NCBI RefSeq assembly: GCF_000021545.1
Contig: NC_012438.1
Location: forward strand, 372,001 to 436,000
DNA: 64,000 bases
Origin: Sulfurihydrogenibium azorense Az-Fu1
Lineage (GTDB): Bacteria; Aquificota; Aquificia; Aquificales; Hydrogenothermaceae
Reading direction: 5' to 3'
Position numbers and translations under genes: made by a program. How positions within the stretch are numbered: the stretch's first letter is position 1; the number at the start of each line of letters is the position of its first letter. This document shows, in pieces, positions 12,729 to 30,888 of the stretch. Under the pieces are notes generated by a model that saw only the letters and a list, made by a program, of their open reading frames with translations, was not told where the DNA came from and did no database searches.

Positions 12729-12926
12729 TTGAAAAGAGCTTTAATATCTGTATCAAACAAAACAGGAGTTATAGATTTTGCAAGAGAACTTGTAAACCTT
12801 GGTTATGAGATAGTGTCTTCTTCAGGGACTGCTAAATACTTAAAAGAAAATGGTATAAATGTAATAGAAGTATCTCAAGTCACAGGCTTTCCCGAAATAT
12901 TGGACGGAAGGTTTATGAGACTTTAG
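12729..12926 (+). pseudogene. purH: purH 5' fragment (IMP cyclohydrolase domain start)
   Basis: The TTG start gives the MGS-like N-terminus of Pur[20 protein letters not shown], then [13 protein letters not shown] and FPEILDGR, which matches the family up to the residue before the usual VKTLHP motif. After DGR the frame runs into FMRL and a stop. The remaining two-thirds of the IMP cyclohydrolase domain and the start of the AICAR transformylase domain are missing. The C-terminal part resumes at once in another frame. PurH catalyses the last two steps of IMP synthesis. The junction is at about 12911-12914. Confidence 0.9.
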
Positions 12927-13312
12927 AAGTGGTAACAGAAAGAAAACCAACAGAAAAAGAGTTAGAAGACTTAATATTTGCATTAAAAGTAGTAAAACAT
13001 GTTAAATCAAACGCAGTTGTAATAGCTAAAGACAAAAGGTCTATAGGTATAGGGGTAGGTCAAACTTCAAGGGTTGACAGTTTAGAAACAGCTGTTAAGA
13101 AAGCTCAAGAGTTTGGACTTGAGTTAGAAGGAAGTGTTCTTGCATCGGAAGCATTCTTCCCGTTTAGAGATAGTATAGATTTTGCCGCTAAGTATGGGAT
13201 AAAGGCTGTAATTCAGCCCGGAGGTTCTATAAGGGACAACGAAGTTATTCAAGCTTGTAATGAGTACTCAATTGCTATGATTTTTACAAAAATGAGACAC
13301 TTTAAACACTAA
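12914..13312 (+). pseudogene. purH: purH 3' fragment (AICAR transformylase C-terminus)
   Basis: This frame encodes [20 protein letters not shown] and continues to the conserved PurH end: [36 protein letters not shown] and the terminal FTKMRHFKH. It is in a different frame from the 5' fragment. Inserting 955 bases at the junction restores a single frame of 512 residues, the normal PurH length, and 955 is also the length of both tandem duplications in this window. A GTG at 12929 could act as a start, but an independent protein is unlikely. Confidence 0.88.
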
Positions 13313-13322
13313 GGGAGTTTTG

Positions 13323-14177
13323 ATGATTCTTTTAAATGGAAAGGAGTTAGCTGAAAAGATTAAAAACCAGATAAAGCAAGAATTACAAGAGTTTTTAAAT
13401 AAAGGCTACAGAAGACCTACTTTAGCTGTTATACTTGTGGGAGAAAATCCTGCAAGTCAGATATACGTTAATAAAAAGATTAAAGACTGTCAGTCTGTTG
13501 GAATAAACTCTAAACCCTTCTTCTTGCCAGAGAACATAACTCAGATAGAACTTTTAGACCTTATAGGACAGCTTAACGGAGATGAGGAAGTTGACGGAAT
13601 TTTAGTTCAGCTCCCTCTTCCTTCTCATATAAACACTTTAGAGATAATAGAAGCTATAAATCCAAAAAAAGACGTTGATGGTTTTCATCCTCTTAATGTA
13701 GGAAAACTTGCAACTGGAAGAAATGATGGTATAATCCCTTGCACTCCTTACGGTATAATGAAACTCCTTGAGTACTACAATATAGACACTTTTGGAAAGG
13801 ATGTTGTAGTAGTAGGGGCAAGTAATATAGTAGGAAAGCCTATGTCCTTGCTGTTTTTAAAAGATGAAAAATCTACTGTTACTATATGTCATAAAAATAC
13901 GAAAGATTTAAAATCCCACACATTAAAAGCAGATATTCTTGTGGTTGCTGTAGGTAAACCTAAACTTATAACTGCAGATATGGTTAAAGAAGGAGCAGTT
14001 GTCATAGATGTAGGTATAAACAGGGTTGATGGTAAAATAGTTGGAGACGTAGACTTTGAAAATGTAAGTAAAAAAGTATCAGCCATAACACCTGTTCCCG
14101 GTGGTGTTGGTCCTATGACTGTTGCTATGCTACTTTATAACACTTTTCAGGCTTATAAAAATAACGTTATTTCTTAG
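13323..14177 (+). CDS. folD: Bifunctional methylenetetrahydrofolate dehydrogenase/cyclohydrolase
   Basis: The 284-residue FolD interconverts 5,10-methylene-THF and 10-formyl-THF. Both signatures are present: [17 protein letters not shown] near residue 40, with the catalytic Lys, and the NADP-binding part [19 protein letters not shown] near 160, plus [16 protein letters not shown] near the end. The ATG at 13323, after AAGGGAGTT, is preferred to the TTG one codon upstream. The 3' end overlaps the convergent mog gene by 11 bp. It lies next to purH, whose product uses formyl-folate. Confidence 0.96.
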
Positions 14178-14697
14178 GACGAAAAGCTTTTACTTTAGAT
14201 GGGTCTGTGTCAATAAACGGTCCATCTATAAGCTCAATACAGTAAGGTATAGCTGGAAAAACTGCATCAAGACACAGTTTTATAGACTGAGGCTTACCTG
14301 GAAGGTTTACTATTAGACAGCTACCTCTTATTCCAGCTGTTTGTCTTGATAAAATAGCAGTAGGTACCTGCTGCAGAGAAACTTGTCTCATCAGTTCTCC
14401 AAATCCGGGCATCATCTTTTCACAGACTGATTCCGTTGCCTCAGGTGTAACATCTCTTTTAGCTGGTCCAGTTCCTCCAGTAGTAAGAATAAGACAACAG
14501 CCTTTATTATCTACCATATCTATCATAGTTTCTTTTATAACTTCAAACTCGTCAGGTATAACTCTGTAGTCTACTTCAAAAGGTGTGATTAAAACATCGT
14601 TTAAATAATCTATAATTGCTTTTCCACTTATATCTTCGTATATTCCTCTACTTGCCCTGTCTGATATGGTTAGTACTCCTATTAAAGCTTTATCCAT
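14167..14697 (-). CDS. mog: Molybdopterin adenylyltransferase-like protein (MogA/MoaB family)
   Basis: The 176-residue protein belongs to the MoCF-biosynthesis fold. [19 protein letters not shown] is at the N-terminus, and the nucleotide/molybdopterin loop [20 protein letters not shown] is near residues 69-88, followed by [13 protein letters not shown]. It adenylylates molybdopterin before metal insertion. It runs 4 bp after the V4R-like gene and downstream of moaA on the same strand, so the three may form one transcript for molybdenum or tungsten cofactor synthesis. Confidence 0.93.
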
Positions 14698-14701
14698 TTT
14701 C

Positions 14702-15238
14702 TTACCTCAAAAATATAAATTTACATTTTTGATTTTCGTAATCCCTTTCAACCCATTGAATGCCCTTTACACCCTCTTCTAACTTCCTTACAAAAGCCTC
14801 TATAAATCCCCATCCACACCAACAAACACAGTGTTCAATAGGTGCTAAGTTTCTTGGTTTTAAAACGCCTTCGTAAAATACACAGTTACATATATACGCT
14901 TCGTTTTTGTTTCTTTCTATCTTGTATGCAAAACCAAACGTGTTCAAACTTTTTTCAAGTAATTCTTCCCATTCTTCTTTTGGATGGTTATCCATCAAAA
15001 CTTTAGCAACTTCTCTACCAAGCTGTCTTATAATAGCATAACCACCTTTTTTACCGTAAATATTTTGCACTTCATCAGCAAATGCAAAAACTATATCTTT
15101 CCCTGTAGGAGAGCCTTTTAGTTTTTCAGGTAAAACTCTTAGTATTTCGTCAACCGCTTTATCCCCCAAGATATTCCTTGTTAAAGATACAAGTGTATCA
15201 ATAACTTCTTTGTCAATCTGACCTTTAATCTCTGCCAT
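14702..15238 (-). CDS. V4R-domain-like cysteine-rich protein
   Basis: The 178-residue protein has a helical N-terminal half and GGYAIIRQLGREVAKVLM, a pattern typical of V4R/heme-NO-binding-like folds. The C-terminal cysteine-rich stretch (CNCVFYEG, then EHCVCWCGWGF near residues 145-155) could bind a metal or small ligand. The start follows TTTAGGTGA. It lies between moaA and mog, so a link to cofactor or small-molecule sensing is possible, but its function is unknown. The V4R assignment rests on pattern reading only. Confidence 0.6.
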   Translation of the reverse strand: MAEIKGQIDKEVIDTLVSLTRNILGDKAVDEILRVLPEKLKGSPTGKDIVFAFADEVQNIYGKKGGYAIIRQLGREVAKVLMDNHPKEEWEELLEKSLNTFGFAYKIERNKNEAYICNCVFYEGVLKPRNLAPIEHCVCWCGWGFIEAFVRKLEEGVKGIQWVERDYENQKCKFIFLR

Positions 15239-15298
15239 GGCAAATCACCTAAAATTTTTTAGAAAAATTATACACTAAAAAATTCAAATTAAATTAAT

Positions 15299-16264
15299 TT
15301 ACCCACCTATACTTGTCATTACCCTGACACAGTCTGAAAAAGCATAGCTACTATTTTTAATCTTTAGATTTGATATTTCTTTTGCTACTAATACTTGCTG
15401 TAAAAATCTGTCTAAATCTTCCTCACTTCCGTATCTCAAAACTTCTTTTACAGGAATCTCTTCATCTGTTCTAAGACATAATTTAATACTACCTTCAGCA
15501 GTGAGTCTTAATTTAGAACAACCATCGCAGAATGGATTTGATATAGGGGTAATAAATCCAATTTTTGCCTTATACTTTGGTATCTCATAGACTCTAGCAG
15601 CACCACTACCGATTGAAAACGACGGAATTAGTGTCCCATATTTTTCCTCTATTTTTCTTTTTATCTCTTCAAGAGGTTGAACCATATCTTTTTCCCATTT
15701 TATAGACCCTTGTCCAAGTGGCATCATTTCTATAAATCTAACCTCTACGCCGTAATCTATGGCAAACTCTACAAAATCAAGAGCTTCATCTTCATTTAAA
15801 CCTTTTATTACCACCGCATTTATCTTTATAGGGTCAAACCCTAACTTTTTACTTACTCTTATACCTTCTAAAACATCTTCTAATCTTCCTTTGGTTATTT
15901 TGTAGAATAAATCTGGTTTTAGGCTATCTATACTTATGTTTAATCTATTTAACCCAGCTTTTCTTAATTTTTCCGCATGATAAGATAGTGTTATTCCATT
16001 TGTTGTCATTCCTATATCTTCTATCTGAGGAATGCTTTTAAGTAGTGATACTAAATTTTCTATTTGTGGTCTGACTAAAGGTTCTCCGCCTGTTATTCTG
16101 ACTTTTTTTAGTCCATACTTTGTCATCGCTTTGACTAACTTTGCAATTTCTTCATATCTTAATATCTCATCGTGAGGAATAAACTCCATATTATCTGGTC
16201 TGCAGTAAAAACATTTTAAATTACATTTATCTGTTACAGATATTCTTAAATATGAGATTTCCAT
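15299..16264 (-). CDS. moaA: GTP 3',8-cyclase (radical SAM)
   Basis: The 321-residue MoaA carries out the first step of molybdenum cofactor synthesis. The radical-SAM cluster site is CNLKCFYC (Cys14, 18 and 21 from the chosen start), followed by RITGGEPLVRP. The second 4Fe-4S site is FCDGCSKLRLTAEGSIKLC near residue 245. The ATG at 16264 follows GAGGGTAGAA and gives the standard N-terminus; a frame extension to 16351 adds 29 atypical residues and is rejected. The usual terminal Gly-Gly is present (SIGG). Confidence 0.95.
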   Translation of the reverse strand: MEISYLRISVTDKCNLKCFYCRPDNMEFIPHDEILRYEEIAKLVKAMTKYGLKKVRITGGEPLVRPQIENLVSLLKSIPQIEDIGMTTNGITLSYHAEKLRKAGLNRLNISIDSLKPDLFYKITKGRLEDVLEGIRVSKKLGFDPIKINAVVIKGLNEDEALDFVEFAIDYGVEVRFIEMMPLGQGSIKWEKDMVQPLEEIKRKIEEKYGTLIPSFSIGSGAARVYEIPKYKAKIGFITPISNPFCDGCSKLRLTAEGSIKLCLRTDEEIPVKEVLRYGSEEDLDRFLQQVLVAKEISNLKIKNSSYAFSDCVRVMTSIGG

Positions 16265-16371
16265 ATTTCTACCCTCAAGTGTAATTCCTAGATATAAAGG
16301 ATATACCTTTTTTGGCGATTTGACAAGTATGGAATAACGAAAATATTGCATAAAAAAAGTGCAGTATATAG

Positions 16372-16400
16372 TTGACTTTTTAATTTATCTATCTCATAAT
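16372..16400 (+). promoter_or_regulatory. Promoter of the cold-shock gene pair
   Basis: A -35 TTGACT (16372-16377) and a -10 CATAAT (16395-16400) are separated by 17 bases. The predicted transcript would have a 5' leader of about 147 nt before the first csp start. Long leaders are a hallmark of cold-shock mRNAs. Confidence 0.75.
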
Positions 16401-16503
16401 ATGTGTACATAGATAATAGAAGATGTTTAAAGAAGTACCAAGGGGAGTAAGACACACAATCAAAAAGTCTTCAAAAGTCCCAAAATCAAAAGTATTTCTT
16501 TAA

Positions 16504-16521
16504 ACCTCTTCTGTTAGAGGT
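16504..16521 (+). promoter_or_regulatory. Hairpin in the csp 5' leader
   Basis: ACCTCT (16504-16509) pairs perfectly with AGAGGT (16516-16521) around a 6-base loop, about 20 bases before the GGAGG ribosome-binding site at about 16542. No U run follows, so it is not a simple terminator. A structural role in the leader, for example temperature-dependent folding, is inference. Confidence 0.45.
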
Positions 16522-16553
16522 AATTTTAAATTAATTTTTGGAGGTTTTTTGTC

Positions 16554-16760
16554 GTGCGTATCACAGGTACAGTTAAGTGGTTCAACTCAAAGAAAGGATT
16601 TGGCTTCATCACAAGAGATGATGGCCAAGGAGATGTTTTTGTTCATTTTTCAGCAATTCAGTCAAGAGGTTTCAAAACTCTTGAAGAAGGTCAAAAAGTA
16701 GAGTTTGAAATCGCTCAGGACGAGAAAGGTCCTAAAGCAGCAAACGTAGTTAGAGTTTAG
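16554..16760 (+). CDS. Cold-shock protein (CspA family), first copy
   Basis: The 68-residue single cold-shock domain has the RNA-binding motifs KGFGFITRD (RNP1) and DVFVHFSAI (RNP2). It binds single-stranded nucleic acid and acts as an RNA chaperone. The GTG start at 16554 follows TTGGAGG with 8-base spacing. A strong promoter and a leader of about 147 nt lie upstream. A second, closely similar copy follows 12 bp later. Confidence 0.96.
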
Positions 16761-16772
16761 GAGGAAGAAGGT

Positions 16773-16979
16773 ATGAAAGTTACAGGAACAGTGAAATGGT
16801 TTGATTCTAAAAAAGGATTTGGTTTTATCACAAGAGATGATAACGGGCAGGATATATTCGTTCACTTCTCAGCTATTCAAGGTAGAGGGTTTAAAAACCT
16901 TGAAGAAGGTCAAAAAGTAGAGTTTGAAATAGTTCAAGAAGAAAAAGGTCCAAGAGCTGCTAACGTAGTTAAGTTGTAA
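16773..16979 (+). CDS. Cold-shock protein (CspA family), second copy
   Basis: The 68-residue paralogue of the preceding gene differs at about a dozen positions, for example [21 protein letters not shown] follows AGGAGGAAG. RNP1 (KGFGFITRD) and RNP2 are intact. The two copies differ much more at the DNA level than the exact duplications elsewhere in the window, so this is a true old gene duplication. A strong terminator closes the pair. Confidence 0.96.
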
Positions 16980-16988
16980 AGAATATAC

Positions 16989-17020
16989 AAGGGAGCTTCC
17001 AAAGCTCCCTTAATTTTTTT
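16989..17020 (+). terminator. Rho-independent terminator of the csp pair
   Basis: A perfect 10-bp stem (AAGGGAGCTT, 16989-16998, with AAGCTCCCTT, 17002-17011) has a 3-base loop and is followed by AATTTTTTT. It lies 9 bases after the second csp stop. Confidence 0.93.
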
Positions 17021-17188
17021 CCTTGTAGTTTTTTCAATTTTCTTCTTTCAGCAGTATCTTGTAAATCATTTGAAGCTTTGGCTTCAATTGAGGTAAATTT
17101 TCTTTTATCATATGTGCTTTATTAAAATCTTTCAAAAAATCAGTTTTAGAATATAATAATTCAAAGATAATACCGATAGGTAGTTGAA

Positions 17189-18457
17189 ATGAAAAAATTT
17201 TTAGTTTTACTTTTACTATTTATTTTTAAATTCTCATTTGCTGAAGTCTTTGTTGGTAAGTGGAACGATGCTATAACTCCTACCACAGTTGATTATGTAA
17301 AAAGGTTAGTGGAGAAGGCAGAAAGAGAAAATGGAAAAGCAGTTATACTTATGCTTGATACACCGGGTGGTTTAGACACTTCAATGAGAGAGATAATAAA
17401 GATAATACAAAACACGTCAATACCTTTTGTTGTTTTTGTATATCCACCAGGGTCAAGAGCTGCGTCAGCAGGTGCTATAATCACAGTATCAGCTGATATT
17501 GCAGCTATGGCTCCTTCTACTAACATAGGCTCTGCTTCTCCTGTTTCTATGGAAGGTAGAGATATTGAAGAGACGATGAAGAAAAAAGTAGTAAACGATA
17601 TGGTTGCGTTTGTGAGTGCCATTGCAAAGGAAAAAGGTAGAAACAGTGAAATAATACAAAAGATGATAACAGAAAGTGTAAACCTTCCATCCGACGAAGC
17701 TGTTAATAAAAAGGTTGTTGATTTAGTGGCAAAAGATTTAAACGATTTGATAGATAAGATAAATGGTAAAAAGATTGTTAAAAACAATAGAGAGATAATT
17801 TTAAACCTAAAAGGTGATAAGATTGTATTTGTAGAAAAAAGTTTTAAAGAAGAGCTTTTATCTTTTCTATCTAACCCAACGGTTGCTTACTTTCTTTTGA
17901 TGATTGGATTTTACGGAATATTTTTTGAACTTTACAATCCGGGAAGTATAATCCCCGGAACGGTTGGTTTAATATCTCTGGCTTTGGCTTTGTACTCCTT
18001 AAACATCTTGTCTGTAAACTGGCTTGGAGTTGTGCTTATAGGTTTAGGTATACTATTCTTTATTTTAGAGGCTATAACACCGTTGTTTGGTGGACTTGCT
18101 TTAGCCGGAACTATCTCAATACTTCTTGGGTCCATAATCTTACTTCCTTCTGATTCGCCTTACGGTGACCTTTCTTTATCTGTTATAATACCTGTTGTTT
18201 TATTTAGTGCTGTATTCTTCTTTATTGTTAGTTATCTATCCTTAAAAGTTCACAAAGAAAAGCCTAAAACAGGTATAGAAGCCATGGTAGGAGATATAGC
18301 TGAAGTTGTAAGTGATATTGATAAGAAAGGTGGTAAAGTGATGTATCACGGAGAACTTTGGAACGCTTACTCGGATAAGTTTATACCAGCAGGTAGTAAA
18401 GTTAAGATAGTTGAAGTTAATGGATTAAAGTTAAAAGTAGAGGAAGTTAAAGAGTGA
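17189..18457 (+). CDS. nfeD: NfeD/ClpP-class membrane serine protease
   Basis: The 422-residue protein begins with a signal peptide (residues 1-19, ending FSFA). A ClpP-like protease domain follows, with LDTPGGLDTSM and the nucleophile region SRAASAGAIITVSADIAAM near residues 95-113. Four or five membrane segments lie around residues 230-360, and the last ~60 residues form a NfeD OB-fold. Such proteins act in membrane quality control with stomatin partners; none is adjacent. This full copy is intact, but its 3' half is repeated at 18913-19412. A TATAAT at 17152-17157 may be its -10 box. Confidence 0.93.
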   Translation: MKKFLVLLLLFIFKFSFAEVFVGKWNDAITPTTVDYVKRLVEKAERENGKAVILMLDTPGGLDTSMREIIKIIQNTSIPFVVFVYPPGSRAASAGAIITVSADIAAMAPSTNIGSASPVSMEGRDIEETMKKKVVNDMVAFVSAIAKEKGRNSEIIQKMITESVNLPSDEAVNKKVVDLVAKDLNDLIDKINGKKIVKNNREIILNLKGDKIVFVEKSFKEELLSFLSNPTVAYFLLMIGFYGIFFELYNPGSIIPGTVGLISLALALYSLNILSVNWLGVVLIGLGILFFILEAITPLFGGLALAGTISILLGSIILLPSDSPYGDLSLSVIIPVVLFSAVFFFIVSYLSLKVHKEKPKTGIEAMVGDIAEVVSDIDKKGGKVMYHGELWNAYSDKFIPAGSKVKIVEVNGLKLKVEEVKE

Positions 18458-18927
18458 AGATAAGACCACTACCTGATGAAGTTGTAAATAAAATAGCAGC
18501 TGGTGAAGTTGTAGAAAGACCGTCTTCCGTATTAAAAGAACTTATAGAAAACTCCCTTGATACATCTGCATCTTTGATAGAAGTTTCTATAGAAAAAGCT
18601 GGTAAAAGACTTATATCTGTGTTTGACAACGGGGAAGGTATTGAAAAACAAGACCTTATCAACGCAGTAAAAAGACATTACACAAGTAAGATAAAAGCTT
18701 TAGAAGACTTATACAGTATTATCACTTACGGTTTTAGGGGAGAGGCTCTATCAAGTATATCTTCTGTAAGTAGGCTTACAATAACTTCAAGGACTAAAAA
18801 CGACTTACACGGCAGTCAATTATCTTTAGAAGGTGGTAAAATTCTGTCTTTCTCAGAAGTTGGTTGTCCTGTAGGGACAAAAGTAGAAGTTAAAGACCTT
18901 TTCTTTAACGTTGAACGGTTGGTTTAA
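18454..18927 (+). pseudogene. mutL: mutL 5' fragment in the first duplicate unit
   Basis: The first 153 codons equal those of the full mutL at 19409, including the GHKL motifs [20 protein letters not shown] and [11 protein letters not shown]. The frame then crosses the duplication junction at 18913 into nfeD sequence read in the wrong frame and stops after five residues. It lacks the transducer and C-terminal domains and cannot be a functional MutL. It is a by-product of the tandem duplication or an assembly artefact. Confidence 0.9.
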
Positions 18928-19412
18928 TATCTCTGGCTTTGGCTTTGTACTCCTTAAACATCTTGTCTGTAAACTGGCTTGGAGTTGTGCTTATAGGTTT
19001 AGGTATACTATTCTTTATTTTAGAGGCTATAACACCGTTGTTTGGTGGACTTGCTTTAGCCGGAACTATCTCAATACTTCTTGGGTCCATAATCTTACTT
19101 CCTTCTGATTCGCCTTACGGTGACCTTTCTTTATCTGTTATAATACCTGTTGTTTTATTTAGTGCTGTATTCTTCTTTATTGTTAGTTATCTATCCTTAA
19201 AAGTTCACAAAGAAAAGCCTAAAACAGGTATAGAAGCCATGGTAGGAGATATAGCTGAAGTTGTAAGTGATATTGATAAGAAAGGTGGTAAAGTGATGTA
19301 TCACGGAGAACTTTGGAACGCTTACTCGGATAAGTTTATACCAGCAGGTAGTAAAGTTAAGATAGTTGAAGTTAATGGATTAAAGTTAAAAGTAGAGGAA
19401 GTTAAAGAGTGA
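18913..19412 (+). pseudogene. nfeD: nfeD 3' fragment in the second duplicate unit
   Basis: This repeats the last ~165 codons of nfeD: the second half of the membrane region and the C-terminal OB-fold, ending [13 protein letters not shown]. An open frame exists from ATG 18939 (157 residues) but has no upstream protease domain or ribosome-binding site of its own. Its stop overlaps the GTG start of the full mutL, as in the first copy. Confidence 0.9.
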
Positions 19413-20962
19413 AGATAAGACCACTACCTGATGAAGTTGTAAATAAAATAGCAGCTGGTGAAGTTGTAGAAAGACCGTCTTCCGTATTAAAAGAACTTAT
19501 AGAAAACTCCCTTGATACATCTGCATCTTTGATAGAAGTTTCTATAGAAAAAGCTGGTAAAAGACTTATATCTGTGTTTGACAACGGGGAAGGTATTGAA
19601 AAACAAGACCTTATCAACGCAGTAAAAAGACATTACACAAGTAAGATAAAAGCTTTAGAAGACTTATACAGTATTATCACTTACGGTTTTAGGGGAGAGG
19701 CTCTATCAAGTATATCTTCTGTAAGTAGGCTTACAATAACTTCAAGGACTAAAAACGACTTACACGGCAGTCAATTATCTTTAGAAGGTGGTAAAATTCT
19801 GTCTTTCTCAGAAGTTGGTTGTCCTGTAGGGACAAAAGTAGAAGTTAAAGACCTTTTCTTTAACGTTCTTGCAAGGGAAAAATTTTTAAAATCTGAAAAC
19901 ACAGAAAACATCCATAATGTCTCTGTCTTTTTAAACTACGCCATTGCAAACCCTGATAAACACTTTAAACTATCTATAGACTCAAAACAGGTTTACAATC
20001 TCTATCCTTCCTCTTTAAAAGAAAGGTTAACGCTTATCTACGGTAAAGATTTTGTTGAAAATTTAAAGTATGTAGAGTATGAAAACTATTTAGGTAAAGT
20101 TTATGGATTTGTCAGTTTAGATTCAGTTAAAAATAAAAAAAGCCATATATTTATCAACAAAAGACCTGTCAAAAGTCCTTTTATTAGTTCTATAATGAAG
20201 AAGAAAATTGGAGATAACTTTTTTATCTTATTTTTTGACCTACCACCTTACTTTGTAGATGTAAATGTTCATCCTGCAAAGATAGAAGTTAAGTTCCAAA
20301 AAGAGAAAGTGATAGTTGATATGATTGAGTCTTTACTAAAAGATAACCTAAATGAGTTTAAAGCTTTTACCGTTTCATACCAAGAGTTAAAACAGCCAAA
20401 GTCAACATACCAAACAAAAGAAGGAAAGTTTGAGATAATCGGCCAGATTGAAGACACATTTATAGTGGCTTACAGTGATTCTTACGTTTACTTTATTGAC
20501 CAGCATGTAGCAAACGAGAGAGTTATGTATGAAATTATACTTTCACAGCTTAAAGAAAGTAAGAAAATCCCATCTCAAAGATTACTATCTCCTTTTAAGT
20601 TAGATTTATCTCCTAAACAGGAGTTTATACTAAAAGAGATTAATGATACATTAGAGACCTTAGGCTTTAAAGTGGAAAATAACTACTTAATATCAATACC
20701 TTACAATATGCAGATTTCAAAAGCAGTAGAAACACTGTATGAAATAGTAGAAAGTTATCCTGATATTACCCATGAAAAAGTAGCCTCTTCACTGTCCTGT
20801 AGAATGTCAATTACAGCTGGAGATAGACTTACATTAGAAAAAGCTCAGGAACTTATAAAAAACTGGATAAAGACAGAAAATCCAAATGTTTGCCCCCACG
20901 GAAGACCGATTTATTATAAAATATCTATAGATGAAATAAAAAAAGCGGTAGGTAGAAAGTGA
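19409..20962 (+). CDS. mutL: DNA mismatch repair protein MutL
   Basis: The full 517-residue MutL starts at GTG 19409, overlapping the nfeD-type stop. The N-terminal GHKL ATPase has [29 protein letters not shown] and [10 protein letters not shown] near residue 285. The C-terminal endonuclease domain has [12 protein letters not shown] (a variant of DQHA-x2-E-x4-E) and CPHGRP, so this is a nicking-type MutL as in bacteria without MutH. pyrF overlaps by 4 bp. The first third is duplicated upstream. Confidence 0.96.
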
Positions 20963-21645
20963 ATATAGCTTTAGCCTTAGACGTAGAACACGATAAGCAA
21001 GCTTACAAAATACTTGACGAAATTCAAGAGAAGATAATAGTAAAAGTAGGTTATGCACTTTTTATAAGGTACGGTAAAGAGTTAGTTAAAAACATAAAAT
21101 ATAGAGGTTTTGAGCTTTTTTTAGACCTAAAGCTCCATGATATACCAAACACAGTTTACAACGGTGTAAAAGCAGCTGTAGAAGTAGGAGCTGACTATCT
21201 AACCATCCATACCTTAGGTGGTAGAGATATGATTGAAAAAGCTGTAGAGGGAAAAGATGGTTCAAATCTAAAACTCTTAGGAGTAACTATTCTAACAAGC
21301 CATTCTCAAGATTATGTAAACTACATAAAAAGTCAGTACTCACTACAAGATTTAGCTTTAAACCTTGCAAAGGAAGGGATTTTAAACGGCTTAGATGGTA
21401 TAGTTTGCTCTTCCCATGAAGTAAAATACTTAAAATTAAACATAGATAAACCGTTTTTAGCAGTAGTCCCTGGTATAAGATTAACAACGGAGAAAACTGA
21501 TGATCAAACAAGGATAGCCACTCCAAAAGAAGCTGTCTTAAATGGAGCTGACATTTTAGTAATAGGAAGACCTATCTTACAGTCTCAAGATAAAAATCAA
21601 ACAATAAAAAAAATCAAGGAAATGATAGATGAAGCAAGGGCTTAG
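20959..21645 (+). CDS. pyrF: Orotidine 5'-phosphate decarboxylase
   Basis: The 228-residue TIM barrel makes UMP from OMP. The catalytic motif [11 protein letters not shown] is near residues 53-63. The phosphate-binding end has VVPGIRL near residue 170 and [13 protein letters not shown] near residue 200. GTG at 20959 overlaps the stop of mutL, and the 3' end overlaps rpoN by 17 bp, so nfeD-mutL-pyrF-rpoN reads as one operon. Confidence 0.96.
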
Positions 21646-21931
21646 TCTTAAGCTTCAAAATAAGTTAAAGTTAACTCTATCTTTAAAACAGCAGCTGAAT
21701 ATTATAACCCTACCAAAAAGTGAGTTAATCCAAGAGATAAATAGAGAGTTAGAGGAAAACCCTTTTTTGGAAGAGATATCTCACATCCAACCTGATTTAA
21801 ATTTAGAAAAGGTAGAATTCGGCTCCTACTACGAAGAAGATGAGGAGAAAGACCCTTTTTATAAACTAACCTATAAACCTTCTTTATACGACATTTTACA
21901 AACACAGATAGAGTTGCAAGAAGGACTGTAA
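21629..21931 (+). pseudogene. rpoN: rpoN 5' fragment (sigma-54 region I)
   Basis: The ATG start gives the glutamine- and leucine-rich activator-interacting region of sigma-54: LKLTLSLKQQLNIITLPKSE, then REL-EENPFLEE. An acidic linker and SLYDILQTQIEL, the start of the core-binding region, follow. The frame ends at 21931. The rest of the core-binding region and the DNA-binding domain are missing, apart from the last ~25 codons, which follow at once in another frame. The location just before hpf is the classic rpoN-hpf order. Confidence 0.9.
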
Positions 21932-21987
21932 CAAAGTATAGAGAAGAGATGAATATACCTGACTCAAGAAAAAGAAAAAAAAATTAA
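21913..21987 (+). pseudogene. rpoN: rpoN 3' fragment (RpoN box)
   Basis: Read from 21913, this frame gives VARRTVTKYREEMNIPDS and then RKRKKN before a stop. ARRTVxKYRE is the RpoN box, the -24 element recognition helix and the hallmark of sigma-54. It is shifted by one frame from the 5' fragment. Restoring 955 bases at the junction makes a single 437-residue protein, within the normal sigma-54 range of about 400-480. Confidence 0.9.
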
Positions 21988-21997
21988 GGAGGAAAAC

Positions 21998-22561
21998 ATG
22001 CAAGTAGAACACGTGGGAAAAAACATTGAGCTAACAGATTTTATTAAAGCTTATACAGAACATAAGCTTGAGAGGTTAAAAAACTATTTAAAAGATTTAG
22101 ACACTTCAGAAGACTCTGTTAGAGTTAGGGTTGTTTACGATTTTGAAAAACGCAGACATAGAAACAGAGTAGATATTGACATTTACTTTAACACTCCAGG
22201 TGGTGGTGTAATACACGCTTGGGAAGAAAGTAACGACCTTTACTCTGCTATTGACTTTGTTATAGATGAAGTTGAGAGACAACTTATTAGGTTAAAAAGT
22301 AGAAGGATAGAAGAAAAAAGAAGACAGGCAAAGTTAGAATCTTTAAAAGAACATTCAGTAACCACTCCTTCAATAGAAAGACCGTTAATAACCCTTGAGC
22401 CTTTACCATCCGAAAAGCCTATGAGTGTAGAAGATGCAAGGTTATTGTTGGAAGAGACAGGGGCGTTTTTCTTACCGTTTATAAACTCTGAGACAGGACA
22501 GGTTAATGTTATATACAGAAAAAAAGCAGGGAATTACGGTTTAATTGCTCCTAACGTTTAA
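21998..22561 (+). CDS. hpf: Ribosome hibernation promoting factor, long form
   Basis: The 187-residue protein has an N-terminal S30AE domain (about residues 1-100) and the C-terminal dimerisation domain of long HPF, with MSVEDARLLLEETGAFFLPF and NVIYRKKAGNYGLIAP. Long HPF dimerises 70S ribosomes into inactive 100S particles. ATG follows TAAGGAGG. It comes 10 bp after the rpoN remnant, a widespread gene order. An own promoter is not obvious. Confidence 0.95.
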   Translation: MQVEHVGKNIELTDFIKAYTEHKLERLKNYLKDLDTSEDSVRVRVVYDFEKRRHRNRVDIDIYFNTPGGGVIHAWEESNDLYSAIDFVIDEVERQLIRLKSRRIEEKRRQAKLESLKEHSVTTPSIERPLITLEPLPSEKPMSVEDARLLLEETGAFFLPFINSETGQVNVIYRKKAGNYGLIAPNV

Positions 22562-22562
22562 C

Positions 22563-22591
22563 TTTACACAGATATAAATTTTTGATATAAT
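22563..22591 (+). promoter_or_regulatory. Promoter of the rplM-rpsI operon
   Basis: A -35 TTTACA (22563-22568) and a perfect -10 TATAAT (22586-22591) are 17 bases apart and begin just after the hpf stop. The rplM start is 36 bases past the -10 box, leaving room for a short leader with the GAGAGGAG ribosome-binding site. Confidence 0.8.
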
Positions 22592-22626
22592 ACTGTTTTG
22601 AATTTTTTAAAGAGAGGAGTGGAAGA

Positions 22627-23079
22627 ATGAAGACATTCTATCTTCGTAAAGAAGATGTTAAAAGAGACTGGTACATAATAGACGCTAAAGGAAAAAATTT
22701 AGGAAGACTTGCGTCTTTGATAGCAAACGTTTTAAGAGGAAAACATAAGCCTTACTTTCAACCAGATGTAGACTGTGGAGATTACGTAATTGTGTTAAAC
22801 GCAGACAAATTTACCGTAACTGGTAAAAAGTTAACTGATAAAGAGTACAAATTCCACACAAACACTCCCGGTGGATTAAAAGTTAGAAGCCTCCAATGGA
22901 TGATAGAAAACAGACCAACAAGAGCTTTAGAATTGGCTGTAGAAAGAATGCTTCCTAAAAACAAACTCCAAAAAAGATACATGAAAAGGTTAAAACTTTA
23001 CACAGGAGAAGAGCATAATCATACAGCTCAAAATCCAAAATCTTTAGAAGAGTTAGCAAAACTCTGGAAAGTATTTTAA
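22627..23079 (+). CDS. rplM: 50S ribosomal protein L13 (uL13)
   Basis: The 150-residue L13 has WYIIDAKGKNLGRLASLIAN at the start and LRGKHKPYFQPDVDCGDYV, followed by AVERMLPKNKLQKRYMKRL. The family length is about 142-150. It binds 23S rRNA early in 50S assembly. rpsI follows 9 bp later, the universal rplM-rpsI pair. Confidence 0.98.
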   Translation: MKTFYLRKEDVKRDWYIIDAKGKNLGRLASLIANVLRGKHKPYFQPDVDCGDYVIVLNADKFTVTGKKLTDKEYKFHTNTPGGLKVRSLQWMIENRPTRALELAVERMLPKNKLQKRYMKRLKLYTGEEHNHTAQNPKSLEELAKLWKVF

Positions 23080-23088
23080 GGAGGTATT

Positions 23089-23517
23089 ATGGAAAAAACA
23101 GTAAAAATAGACCCTAAAAACTCATTCTATGGAACAGGAAGAAGAAAAGAAGCAATTGCAAGAGTTTGGATATTTCCAGGTGAAGGTAAAATAAAGGTTA
23201 GAAGCTCTTCTGGAAAAGAATGGGACGCGAAAGATTACTTTGAAAGAGATATCTTAATGGCTAAAATAAACCATCCATTTGTAGTTACAGAAACACTTGG
23301 TAAATTTGATGTTTATGCAACTGTTAAAGGAAGTGGAAAACCAGCTCAAGCAGAAGCTGTTATGTATGGAATAGCAAAAGCTTTAGAGTCTTACAATCCA
23401 TCTCTAAGACCAGCTCTAAAGTCTGCAGGATTGATGACAAGAGATGCTAGAGTTAAAGAACGTAAGAAGTACAACCAAATGGGTGCAAGAGCGAAATACA
23501 GATGGTCTAAACGTTAA
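23089..23517 (+). CDS. rpsI: 30S ribosomal protein S9 (uS9)
   Basis: The 142-residue S9 has the family signature FYGTGRRKEAIARVWIFPG and ends in the basic tail KYNQMGARAKYRWSKR, whose last Arg reaches the P-site tRNA. ATG follows AAGGAGG. argC starts 5 bp after the stop, so argC and the heptose kinase gene are probably read from the ribosomal-protein promoter. Confidence 0.98.
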   Translation: MEKTVKIDPKNSFYGTGRRKEAIARVWIFPGEGKIKVRSSSGKEWDAKDYFERDILMAKINHPFVVTETLGKFDVYATVKGSGKPAQAEAVMYGIAKALESYNPSLRPALKSAGLMTRDARVKERKKYNQMGARAKYRWSKR

Positions 23518-23522
23518 TATAA

Positions 23523-24548
23523 ATGTATGTTGCTATAGCAGGAGCATCAGGATACACTGGTGCTGAGCTTTTAAGAATACTGTCAAGATACAAAGATATA
23601 GAAATAAATCAGATAACTTCAAGACAGTATACAGGGAAAACGCTAAAAGATGTTTTCCCTGTTTTTACAAAATCAAAGTATGAAAATCTTACATTTAAAG
23701 AAAATTTAGATTTAAGTATATCAGATATTTACTTTCTCTGTCTGCCTCATGAAGCATCTTTAGAATTAGTAAAACAGCTTTACGATAACGGTAAAATCAT
23801 AATAGATCTGTCAGCTGCCTATAGGATAAAAAAATCTGAAGTTTATAAAGAATATTACGGTTTTGAACATAACTATCCTCATTTGTTAGAAGAAGCTGTT
23901 TATGGACTTCCAGAGATTTATAGAGATAAAATAAAAACTGCAAAAATTGTAGCAAATCCGGGGTGTTATCCTACAGCTACCTTACTGGGTTTGTATCCTC
24001 TTATAAAGAATAATTTACTCAATCAAAACAACTCTGTTATTGTAAACGCTCTATCAGGAATATCTGGAGCTGGAAGACATTTAAAAGAAGACTTTATGTA
24101 CCCAGAAAGTTATTCAAATGTTTACGCCTATAATATTACAAAACACAGACACACTCCAGAAATGGAAGATGTTATAGAAAATGTATCTAAGAAAAAGATT
24201 TCAATAAGATTTACTCCACACATTATTCCTATATCAAGAGGGATGCTATCTACTATAAATGTTTTTATAGAGATATCTAAGAAAGATTTAAAAGAGCTTT
24301 ACTACGATACTTATAAAAATGAATACTTTATAAGACTTCAAGATAGACCATCAAGGGTAAAAGAAGTAATCGGCACAAACTTTTGTGATATTTATGTAGA
24401 TTACGATGAAAAAAATAAAATCGCAGTCATTACTTCTGCCATAGATAACCTATCAAAAGGCGCTTCTTCTCAGGCTGTTCAAAATTTAAATATAATCTTA
24501 AATAAACCAGAAAACTACTGTTTAGAGAATTTACCTTTATTCCCATGA
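23523..24548 (+). CDS. argC: N-acetyl-gamma-glutamyl-phosphate reductase
   Basis: The 341-residue NADP-dependent enzyme reduces N-acetylglutamyl-phosphate in arginine synthesis. It has VAIAGASGYTGAELLRIL at the N-terminus and the catalytic Cys in NPGCYPTATLLGLYPL near residue 150. HIIPISRGMLSTI is near residue 238. The start has no strong ribosome-binding site and sits 5 bp after rpsI, so it may be reached by translational coupling. argJ of the same pathway is at 32.3 kb. Confidence 0.95.
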   Translation: MYVAIAGASGYTGAELLRILSRYKDIEINQITSRQYTGKTLKDVFPVFTKSKYENLTFKENLDLSISDIYFLCLPHEASLELVKQLYDNGKIIIDLSAAYRIKKSEVYKEYYGFEHNYPHLLEEAVYGLPEIYRDKIKTAKIVANPGCYPTATLLGLYPLIKNNLLNQNNSVIVNALSGISGAGRHLKEDFMYPESYSNVYAYNITKHRHTPEMEDVIENVSKKKISIRFTPHIIPISRGMLSTINVFIEISKKDLKELYYDTYKNEYFIRLQDRPSRVKEVIGTNFCDIYVDYDEKNKIAVITSAIDNLSKGASSQAVQNLNIILNKPENYCLENLPLFP

Positions 24549-25510
24549 TAAGTGTACAACGAGCAGAAGAGCTTATCTCAAAATTTAGTAATATAAAGAT
24601 AGCTGTTGTAGGTGATGTTATCCTTGATAAGTATCTATGGGGAGAAGTAGAGAGAATATCTCCTGAAGCTCCGGTTCCAATAGTTGATGTAAAAAGAGAA
24701 ACGTTATCTTTAGGTGGAGCTTCAAACGTCGCTAACAACATAGTAGCTTTAGATGCAACTGCCTATATGGTTGGAATTGTAGGAGATGATGAAAACGGTA
24801 GACTTATAGAAAAACTTATTAAAGAAAAAGGTATACACTCTGTTTTAATCAAAGACAGTTCAAGACCAACAATAGAAAAAACAAGGGTTATAGCAGTCAG
24901 TCAACAACTTTTAAGAATAGATAGAGAAGAAAGAAAGCCATTAGATAGAGAAATAGAAGAAAAGTTATTAGAATCTCTAAAAAGTATTGAAAGTAAAGTA
25001 GATGGCTTTATTGTATCTGATTATGGTAAAGGAGTTGTCACTGAAAAAATAATGAGTTATATAAAATCCACTAACAAACCTGTTTTTGTAGACCCAAAAC
25101 CTTCTAACTTTCACTTATACGAAGAAATTACAATAATGACTCCAAATAAAAAAGAGGCCTACGAAAGTATAAAAGCTGATAAATCAGAAAGTATAGAAGA
25201 AGTAGGAAAAAGGATAATGGAAAGTCTAAGGATAAACCAACTTCTTATAACCCTTGGCAGTGAAGGGATGGTTCTCTTTGAGAGAGGTAAAGTTTTAAAA
25301 ATTCCGGCTAAAGCAAGGAAAGTTTTTGATGTTACAGGAGCTGGCGATACGGTAATTTCTGTTTTAGCTTTATCAAGGTTAGCAAGTGGATCATGGGAAG
25401 AGAGTGCTACTATATCCAATTATGCAGCTGGCTATGTGGTAGGGGAGATTGGAACTGCTACAGTAAATAGAAAAATACTACTTGAAACTATTGAATCTCA
25501 GAGAGATTGA
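24545..25510 (+). CDS. D-glycero-beta-D-manno-heptose-7-phosphate kinase (RfaE1/HldE kinase domain)
   Basis: The 321-residue PfkB/ribokinase-fold kinase has VVGDVILDKYLWGEVERISPE at the N-terminus, then GGASNVANNIVALDA near residue 58. The catalytic anion hole is DVTGAGDTVISVLAL near residue 263. It phosphorylates heptose-7-phosphate in ADP-heptose synthesis. Only the kinase domain is present; the adenylyltransferase domain (RfaE2) of fused HldE is absent, so it is a split-type enzyme. hldD at 9.6 kb belongs to the same pathway. It overlaps argC by 4 bp. Confidence 0.9.
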   Translation: MISVQRAEELISKFSNIKIAVVGDVILDKYLWGEVERISPEAPVPIVDVKRETLSLGGASNVANNIVALDATAYMVGIVGDDENGRLIEKLIKEKGIHSVLIKDSSRPTIEKTRVIAVSQQLLRIDREERKPLDREIEEKLLESLKSIESKVDGFIVSDYGKGVVTEKIMSYIKSTNKPVFVDPKPSNFHLYEEITIMTPNKKEAYESIKADKSESIEEVGKRIMESLRINQLLITLGSEGMVLFERGKVLKIPAKARKVFDVTGAGDTVISVLALSRLASGSWEESATISNYAAGYVVGEIGTATVNRKILLETIESQRD

Positions 25511-26744
25511 TAGGTTCTTTAAAGAAGTAACCTTGACCATAGTCTATTCCTAACTCTTTCACTTTATCAAATATTTCTTGTGAAGATATAAATTCAGCAA
25601 CTGTAGGTATGTTAAGCTCTTTTGTAAGTCCTCTAATAGCTTTTACTGCACTATAGGAAATTGAGTCTTTGTCTATTTTCCTAATGATTTGACCGTCTAT
25701 TTTAATGTAATCAAAACTAAGTTCTACTATATGCAATATATTAGAATAACCACTACCAAAATCATCTAAGGCAATCTTGTATCCAGCATCTTTTAGTGTA
25801 TTTATCTTATCTCTCAGTTTTGAATACTCACTTACACTTTCAGATTCTAAAAGTTCAATAGTGACTTTTTCTCTAAGGTTTTTTCCTAATGATAGTAAAA
25901 TTTTCAATATATCTTCATCCAGTATATCTGAAGGTAGCAGATTTACGCTTATATTTATGTTTTTTCTATTTAAAATTGAAAAATTAAACTCTAACATCTT
26001 TCTTGTTAACTCTTTATAAACATGACTCCCTTTAATAGAATTTAGAAACATTCCCGGTAAGATAATTTTTCTTTCTTTCGTTAATATCCTTACTAAACTT
26101 TCATATTTAAATGTTTTAAACGTCTGTACATTAAATATTGGTTGGTAAAAGCATATCACTCTATTTTCTAATATAGCCTCTTTTATATCGGAAAGTCTTC
26201 TATCAATAAGGTTAATACTTCTATCGCTGTAAAGTTCAACTCTGTTTTTACCTTTTTCTTTAGCCAGTAGTAGAGCTTTGTCTGCCTTTTTAAATGCATC
26301 CTCAAAACTCTTTTCTTTATCAGCATTGATGTATAAACCTGCAGAAACGGTTATTTTAACTTTGTCTTTTATTATAAAGAATGGGTTGATTGCAACTTTA
26401 CTTACAATCTTTTCAGCTATGCCTAAATAGTTAGTATCGTTCCCATCTTTTTCTAAAAGTATTAAGAATTCATCATGACCTACTCTGATAATTTTGTCGT
26501 TTTCCCTAATATTTCTTTTTATAAGACTTACAAGGTCTCTAAGGATTAGTTCTAAGAATTCTTTACCGTAGATATTTAATAAATTTGATAAGTTGTCCAC
26601 ATCTATCAATAAGAAAGCATACCTTTTCTTTAAGAAATCTTTTTCTATAATGTCAATATAATCCCTATTGTATGCACCTGTTGTTTTATCTATGTATTTT
26701 TCTTCTTCATTTTTTCTTTTATTAAAAAACTCTAAAATGTTCAT
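25488..26744 (-). CDS. GGDEF/EAL domain protein
   Basis: The 418-residue cytoplasmic protein has a GGDEF-like domain (about residues 18-165) with IIRVGHDEFLILLE, so the usual GGDEF is GHDEF. An EAL domain (about residues 180-418) follows, with ESL in place of EAL (KYESLVRI), then IELLESES, ALDDFGSGYSNI, YIKIDG and GQGYFF. Most phosphodiesterase residues are kept and the cyclase motif is altered, so c-di-GMP breakdown is more likely than synthesis. Its 3' end overlaps the kinase gene by 23 bp. Its N-terminal part is repeated at 26.9-27.7 kb. Confidence 0.88.
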   Translation of the reverse strand: MNILEFFNKRKNEEEKYIDKTTGAYNRDYIDIIEKDFLKKRYAFLLIDVDNLSNLLNIYGKEFLELILRDLVSLIKRNIRENDKIIRVGHDEFLILLEKDGNDTNYLGIAEKIVSKVAINPFFIIKDKVKITVSAGLYINADKEKSFEDAFKKADKALLLAKEKGKNRVELYSDRSINLIDRRLSDIKEAILENRVICFYQPIFNVQTFKTFKYESLVRILTKERKIILPGMFLNSIKGSHVYKELTRKMLEFNFSILNRKNINISVNLLPSDILDEDILKILLSLGKNLREKVTIELLESESVSEYSKLRDKINTLKDAGYKIALDDFGSGYSNILHIVELSFDYIKIDGQIIRKIDKDSISYSAVKAIRGLTKELNIPTVAEFISSQEIFDKVKELGIDYGQGYFFKEPINLSEIQ

Positions 26745-26767
26745 AAAATTGATTATAACATAAAATA

Positions 26768-26912
26768 TTATTTATTAAACTTTTCTTTTAACTCTGCTAC
26801 TGTTTGGTGAGTATTATGACACTTTGAACAGTTATTCATAGATATCCATCCTACAGATTTGTAAATCTCTTCCTTGTTTTTGGATTGTAAAGCCTTTGAT
26901 AAAAGGTTTAAC
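26768..26912 (-). pseudogene. Cytochrome c 3' fragment in the first duplicate unit
   Basis: This repeats the last 47 codons of the triheme cytochrome at 27723-28541, including its third heme motif CSKCH. It is joined at 26913 to GGDEF/EAL sequence and has no start. It exists only because of the 955-bp duplication. Confidence 0.85.
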
Positions 26913-27699
26913 TGTTTTTTCTATTTAAAATTGAAAAATTAAACTCTAACATCTTTCTTGTTAACTCTTTATAAACATGACTCCCTTTAATAGAATTTAG
27001 AAACATTCCCGGTAAGATAATTTTTCTTTCTTTCGTTAATATCCTTACTAAACTTTCATATTTAAATGTTTTAAACGTCTGTACATTAAATATTGGTTGG
27101 TAAAAGCATATCACTCTATTTTCTAATATAGCCTCTTTTATATCGGAAAGTCTTCTATCAATAAGGTTAATACTTCTATCGCTGTAAAGTTCAACTCTGT
27201 TTTTACCTTTTTCTTTAGCCAGTAGTAGAGCTTTGTCTGCCTTTTTAAATGCATCCTCAAAACTCTTTTCTTTATCAGCATTGATGTATAAACCTGCAGA
27301 AACGGTTATTTTAACTTTGTCTTTTATTATAAAGAATGGGTTGATTGCAACTTTACTTACAATCTTTTCAGCTATGCCTAAATAGTTAGTATCGTTCCCA
27401 TCTTTTTCTAAAAGTATTAAGAATTCATCATGACCTACTCTGATAATTTTGTCGTTTTCCCTAATATTTCTTTTTATAAGACTTACAAGGTCTCTAAGGA
27501 TTAGTTCTAAGAATTCTTTACCGTAGATATTTAATAAATTTGATAAGTTGTCCACATCTATCAATAAGAAAGCATACCTTTTCTTTAAGAAATCTTTTTC
27601 TATAATGTCAATATAATCCCTATTGTATGCACCTGTTGTTTTATCTATGTATTTTTCTTCTTCATTTTTTCTTTTATTAAAAAACTCTAAAATGTTCAT
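26908..27699 (-). pseudogene. GGDEF/EAL 5' fragment in the second duplicate unit
   Basis: The 263-codon frame is identical to residues 1-262 of the GGDEF/EAL protein at 25488-26744, then ends one residue after the junction. It keeps the altered GGDEF domain (VGHDEF) and only the first part of the EAL domain, without DDFGSG or the later catalytic residues. If the duplication were real, this copy would sit directly downstream of the cytochrome gene and could be expressed; more likely it is an artefact. Confidence 0.88.
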
Positions 27700-27722
27700 A
27701 AAATTGATTATAACATAAAATA

Positions 27723-28541
27723 TTATTTATTAAACTTTTCTTTTAACTCTGCTACTGTTTGGTGAGTATTATGACACTTTGAACAGTTATTCATAGATAT
27801 CCATCCTACAGATTTGTAAATCTCTTCCTTGTTTTTGGATTGTAAAGCCTTTGATAAAAGGTTTAACTTTTCTTCTAACTCTTTGCCTTGATATATTTCA
27901 ATGGATAGTTTGTTGTTATGACACTCATTACAACTTTGAGATATACCCTTAACTCTTTTTATGAAGTTGTTTCCTTCTGCTACTGCTTTATCAAACTTTC
28001 CATCTTCTAAGTAAACTCTCATTTTTTTCATAGAGTCAGAAACTTTTTTCATATAATCGTGAAACTCTACATTAGACCTGCTTACAGGGTCTTCTATATT
28101 TATAACTTCAAAAGATGGGTAATGGTAAAGGATTTTTGTTGATACTTTGTAGTTTTGGTGGCACTGCATACAGGATTTACCTACAGCGTCAGCGTTAAAT
28201 TTTACTTTTTCCATATCTTTTGACTTTACAGCTTCAACAAGGGCATTTACTTCATTCTTCTTTAACCCTTTATCAAACTCAGGAACCATTTTACCTATGT
28301 TTAAATAGTTCTCTCTTAAAATGTTTGCCCATTTTTCTGCATTTTTCCAATCATTTTCCTGTATGTTTGTAAACATTCCTGTAAAAGCTGTTGACATTGC
28401 GTACATACTGTTTAAAAACTCCATTTTATTTGAGTTTGGAGGATAGTACTTTGAAAGAGTCTTTGGTGGTTCTTTTAACGTTAAATCTCCAGCGTAAGAA
28501 ATAGATACACATAAGGCTATAGCAGTTAGATACTTTTTCAT
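27723..28541 (-). CDS. Exported triheme c-type cytochrome
   Basis: ATG at 28541 follows GGGAGGTTT and gives 272 residues with a signal peptide (MKKYLTAIALCVSISYA). A longer frame to 28649 lacks this logic. Three heme sites are visible: CMQCH near residue 123, CNECH near 203 and CSKCH near 255. Extra histidines could be second axial ligands. The helical spacing resembles cytochrome c'-like or NapC-associated electron carriers, but no exact family is recognised. It is periplasmic by inference. Its last 145 bases are also present at 26768-26912. Confidence 0.82.
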   Translation of the reverse strand: MKKYLTAIALCVSISYAGDLTLKEPPKTLSKYYPPNSNKMEFLNSMYAMSTAFTGMFTNIQENDWKNAEKWANILRENYLNIGKMVPEFDKGLKKNEVNALVEAVKSKDMEKVKFNADAVGKSCMQCHQNYKVSTKILYHYPSFEVINIEDPVSRSNVEFHDYMKKVSDSMKKMRVYLEDGKFDKAVAEGNNFIKRVKGISQSCNECHNNKLSIEIYQGKELEEKLNLLSKALQSKNKEEIYKSVGWISMNNCSKCHNTHQTVAELKEKFNK

Positions 28542-28679
28542 AATAAACCTCCCAATCTTTGATTTGTTATAATAATAATAATCGTATTTTTTGGATTTTG
28601 CAAAGCAAATGAGATTTGTCATATCTATTTTTTGATTAAAATTGGACAATTTTTTGAATATTAAATTTGGAGGATTTAG

Positions 28680-30683: not shown

Positions 30684-30888
30684 CTCTGGTTATCCTCCTT
30701 TAAAATTAAATTTGTGGTATAAAAGATATATTAAAAATTTTTAAAAGTAAATATACTTTTGCATATTTTTTGTGCAAATTAAAATTTTTGCCTTGGATTT
30801 TTCAAGGTAGAAACATGATATAAGTTATTGTGAATATTTATTAACTAATATAGATTTTTAGTACAAATTGTTTTTAGGAGAGCGTTTA

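Follow-up and report, generated by a model that had tools for sequence, protein, structure and literature searches.

Two kinds of described system resemble the repeat discussed here—natural tandem duplication in bacteria, and the false tandem duplication that errors of assembly or finishing can create. Bacteria do undergo tandem duplication, and recent copies are identical. False duplications of the general assembly or finishing kind show exact adjacent copies, homology-free junctions, truncated gene fragments, and absence from relatives; those of the overlap type lengthen the sequence. The locus shares its identical, head-to-tail copies with the natural system and all four of the listed traits with the artificial one; however, it departs from both. 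Unlike a natural tandem duplication, it recurs at the same size at three unrelated loci with kilobase spacing, has 0–1 base of junction homology, and comes with paired losses. Unlike the usual assembly error, its gains are paired with losses, a single step size is used throughout, and the edges fall on a 1000-base grid.

The window, i.e. the whole 64,000-base stretch of DNA that was analysed, covers positions 372001–436000 of NC_012438, the single 1,640,877-base contig of Sulfurihydrogenibium azorense Az-Fu1, a genome reportedly announced by Reysenbach et al. in 2009. Its alpha-carbonic anhydrase matches PDB 4x5s, the S. azorense enzyme, with full identity across 228 aligned residues. From comparison of this sequence with those of relatives, we argue that the duplication is almost certainly a technical artefact, in which whole-kilobase stretches would carry correct sequence taken from a coordinate 955 bases too far along. 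The features discussed are collected in Table 1.

Table 1. Features of the window, in window coordinates; the designation of features as false or out of register follows the preferred, artefactual reading.
Feature	Position	Strand	Remarks
purH, apparently cut by a 955-base loss	12729..13312	+	ORFs of 65 and 127 aa, versus a 512-aa protein in G005
First stretch, putatively out of register	12912..18912		~6000 bases long; the left edge fits best after 12910 or 12911
First copy, first repeat	17958..18912		End of nfeD, start of mutL
Putatively false mutL start	18454–18927		157 aa
Second copy, first repeat	18913..19867		Yields the putatively false mutL start and nfeD end
Putatively false nfeD end	18939–19412		157 aa
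rpoN, apparently interrupted by loss of 955 bases near 21912	21629..21931	+	100-aa ORF, activator-interacting domain
Second stretch, putatively out of register	21912..26912		~5000 bases long; the left edge lies after 21911 or 21912
Intact GGDEF/EAL gene	25488..26744	-	418 aa
First copy, second repeat	25958..26912		Last 955 bases of the second stretch
Second copy, second repeat	26913..27867		In register with downstream sequence
Putatively false GGDEF/partial-EAL ORF created by the repeat	26908..27699	-	263 aa
Multi-CXXCH cytochrome gene	27723–28649		

Two repeats of 955 bases

The second repeat of the window, which involves the GGDEF/EAL gene, consists of two adjacent copies without a single mismatch; one extra base matches as well, so that the sequence equals itself 955 bases on over a run of 956. 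The intact gene encodes PF00990 and PF00563 in one chain, i.e. a GGDEF and an EAL domain, and its product is 85% identical over 402 residues to that of a single-copy gene in G005, the genome of a congener. The shorter ORF beside the cytochrome gene also matches GGDEF, but its match to the EAL profile covers positions 3–73 of 236, so that most of the EAL domain is absent. The sequence-only reading had described an identical 955-base copy that ends within the EAL domain and leaves a truncated ORF next to the cytochrome gene, and this description is confirmed.

Named relatives of the 418-residue protein were limited to two distant matches (35% and 26% identity), which are uninformative for the locus, the source genome possibly having been left out of that search. 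By eye, the signatures of this protein look degenerate—VGHDEF in place of the GGDEF signature and ESL in place of EAL. Its GGDEF or EAL activity may be lost or altered.

The first repeat of the window spans the end of nfeD and the start of mutL, and begins exactly 8000 bases before the second. Both periods are 955, so the earlier observation that the two duplications agree in size to the base holds. Junction homology amounts to 0 bases in the first repeat and 1 base in the second. Close by, at 16554–16979, two neighbouring 68-aa genes look cold-shock-like by eye, with repeat units that are 81% alike in DNA.

Gains paired with losses in comparison with relatives

In searches of seven genomes of the genus, the first repeat unit was matched in all seven and the second in six; for both units, adjacent copies were found only in the window's genome. 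The second match of the first unit in G005 is a 38-base piece elsewhere. Comparison with the same locus in related strains had been proposed as a check by the sequence-only reading. Contig 8 of G005 shows colinearity with the window region, its kilobase blocks being about 81–95% identical, and holds each repeat unit once.

Relative to this contig, the offset of the window runs in sequence order through 254, 1209–1240, 285, 1240 and 285, and every step equals 955 (ahead of the final step, BLAST ends at an offset of 1242 rather than 1240 owing to a gap of two bases close by; from the self-repeat, the step is 955). The four steps are a loss near 12911 in purH, a gain at 18912 in nfeD/mutL, a loss near 21912 in rpoN, and a gain at 26912 in the GGDEF/EAL gene. 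Gains and losses alternate, their lengths sum to zero, and both stretches between a loss and the following gain carry sequence that belongs 955 bases further on. The two duplications first described are present in the sequence as reported, but the picture they gave was incomplete; each would mark where a misplaced stretch ends on the right, the losses in purH and rpoN marking where these stretches start on the left. A further change of offset at 30806–30815, where G005 is ~6.8 kb longer, was considered as an additional event and rejected—it lies ~100 bases off the grid described below and looks like an ordinary insertion or deletion.

At the same place, G005 contig 8 encodes whole PurH (512 aa) and RpoN (437 aa) proteins. 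When the G005 PurH was searched in the window's genome, residues 1–65 and 367–512 were found at this locus, and elsewhere there was one weak match (38% over 57 residues); the missing middle was not found elsewhere in the genome when the whole protein served as query. In rpoN, the missing 955 bases fall between the N-terminal domain and the last residues, and the C-terminal end of the protein continues out of frame up to about 21981. The surviving ends of both genes lie in the frame expected for a loss of 1 modulo 3; 955 is 1 modulo 3, and the frame changes fit a loss of that size.

The RpoN DNA-binding domain is matched in 34 of 41 family genomes; in the window's genome the match covers profile positions 137–160 only, and there is no intact rpoN. 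Among the other 33 matching genomes, 32 have a nearly whole domain, and one (G015) has positions 2–73. The seven family genomes without a match are each below 90% complete or more than 5% contaminated. The window's genome is scored 99.99% complete and is the sole one of the 41 having just the last 24 positions of the domain. It also has six strong matches to the sigma-54-activator domain (225–243 bits) and four weak ones (20–29 bits). The strong matches alone are suggestive; the presence of activators is by itself not specific, because the activator family is also matched in control genomes that lack a match to the RpoN domain (14 of 14 controls for the former, 4 of 14 for the latter).

A shared grid and a third repeat

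The edges of these events are placed regularly. In genome coordinates, the gains fall after 390912 (exact) and after 398912 or 398913, and the best-fitting edges of the losses fall after 384910–384911 and 393911–393912; all four edges within the window are at most 2 bases from position 912 modulo 1000.

We scanned genome positions 72001–756000 (684,000 of the 1,640,877 bases) for stretches of 25 or more bases that recur exactly 955 bases further on, and found four, of 955, 955, 956, and 29 bases. Chance is excluded as a source of the repeats, since these were the only four such runs in 684,000 bases. One of them is a third repeat at genome 81958–82912 and 82913–83867, with the same period and grid, an exact run of 955, and a junction homology of 0; it precedes the first repeat by exactly 308,000 bases. 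On a naive estimate, the gain edges of the second and third repeats would fall on the same residue as the first with a probability of about 2e-6. A further figure of 3e-8 for the losses was set aside, as it included the third event and took the edges to agree to within a single base.

The third repeat is probably also paired with a loss. After genome 77911, 5 kb before the repeat, 916 bases are absent relative to G005 contig 14, on the grid and with no gap on the query side; the pairing is graded as probable because the length is 916 rather than 955, and because several further insertion or deletion differences from G005 occur in the stretch concerned (genome 77912–82912). In the sequence absent here, G005 has a 254-aa TonB-domain gene, for which a search run without a positive control gave no match in the window's genome. 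The best joint edge of the losses over all three events is after position 911, not 912. Tentatively, with one or two bases per site bearing on the point, the shifted stretches may be 6001, 5001, and 5001 bases long, as expected if each were taken inclusively from a start to that start plus a multiple of 1000. By eye, an RNase H-like ORF beside the third loss appears cut at its start, and the third repeat lies inside an outer-membrane-protein-like ORF.

A mobile or otherwise ordinary repeat was also considered and rejected. In the 684 kb that were scanned, the other repeats with 40 or more exact bases and no more than 20 kb apart occur at distances of 120, 397, 439, 836, 4589, 17629, and 17995 bases. 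The first of these, near genome 330645, is a real adjacent repeat (exact run 131) of another size and off the grid; in the remaining six, the exact run is shorter than the distance. The same scan revealed no adjacent exact repeats in 180 kb of G005 contig 8 or in 200 kb of G025, and none in 200 kb of G002 except a run of N.

These results bear on two other explanations. The piece between the false junctions (18913–26912) is exactly 8000 bases long, and this was the origin of the idea that a contig of that length had been joined end to end with its neighbours, leaving 955-base overlaps untrimmed. Such a join leaves unexplained the 955-base losses in purH, which is outside the piece, and in rpoN, which is inside it, as well as the third repeat 308 kb away; the idea was dropped on these grounds, and we consider it very improbable. 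The other explanation holds that tandem duplications genuinely took place in the cultured strain, very recently, through slippage or unequal recombination, and that purH and rpoN independently suffered genuine deletions. The sequence flanking the copies is left unbroken at the junctions, which is in keeping with this, as is the known identity of recent natural copies. It would require, however, three duplications of exactly 955 bases spaced by exact multiples of 1000 bases, two losses of that same size on the same grid, and the loss of purH from an autotroph lineage without another copy. The junctions in the window also offer 0–1 base of homology; homology-free duplications are possible, and this lack alone is not decisive. 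Taken together, we find real duplication scarcely credible. The view of the sequence-only reading, that equal size in unrelated sequences argues against independent biological origins, is borne out by the shared size of 955, the 1000-base grid, the cancelling lengths, and the third repeat.

Proposed register-shifted patches and their possible consequences

The artefact that we favour would work as follows. At the left edge of a shifted stretch 955 bases would be lost and at the right edge 955 bases would be doubled, leaving the flanks untouched and the total length the same. The nfeD/mutL repeat would be the right edge of the first stretch in Table 1, whose left edge cuts purH, and the GGDEF/EAL repeat the right edge of the second, whose left edge cuts rpoN. 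Such patches could arise if pieces of one version of the chromosome, cut by coordinate in 1000-base units, were pasted into another version whose numbering is 955 bases apart, e.g. because its start point had been moved or it carried a single additional insertion. No software with precisely this behaviour is known to us. In the real chromosome, each repeat unit is most likely single-copy, with purH and rpoN whole.

Where the error entered is a separate matter, which concerns the origin of the artefact rather than the choice between artefact and biology. The error could lie solely in the copy analysed here, the deposited record being sound. The published length of S. azorense Az-Fu1 (NC_012438), 1,640,877 bases (PMC5441870), is the same as that of the analysed sequence, and is compatible with a copy-only error; because the shift is length-neutral, the published length neither supports nor contradicts an artefact. 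A run of N of ~5 kb in the control stretch of G002 likewise indicates that local processing in kilobase units may occur. Counted from the first base of the contig, however, the phase of the grid is 912 and not 0, which is expected if the error preceded the choice of start point, and no such repeat is present in the scanned stretches of the three other genomes (G005, G025, and G002). We therefore regard a copy-only error as possible, though somewhat unlikely. The phase suggests instead that the error predates the final choice of start point and belongs to the original finishing work. Among the matches listed in searches of the open-licence literature on the S. azorense genome, purH, rpoN, and misassembly, no report of such an error was found in the portions seen, including those of PMC4227106, PMC3403428, and PMC5441870.

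On balance, we lean towards the reading that the public Az-Fu1 reference itself holds several patches that are 955 bases out of register and leave the total length unchanged. In that record, purH, rpoN, and probably tonB would then be falsely truncated or absent, the additional fragments of GGDEF/EAL, mutL, and nfeD would be false as well, and other genomes from the same pipeline could share the error. A shift of this kind is invisible in genome size, and the affected genome is still scored 99.99% complete; such cases would be revealed by a simple screen for adjacent exact repeats that share one period and have their edges on one grid.

No biological mechanism is required for the feature, which is useful as a warning on purH, rpoN, mutL/nfeD, the GGDEF/EAL gene, and probably tonB in this sequence. 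If the error is in the deposit, studies of gene content would count a Sulfurihydrogenibium without a working rpoN or purH, and would include non-existent extra fragments of c-di-GMP genes and mutL.
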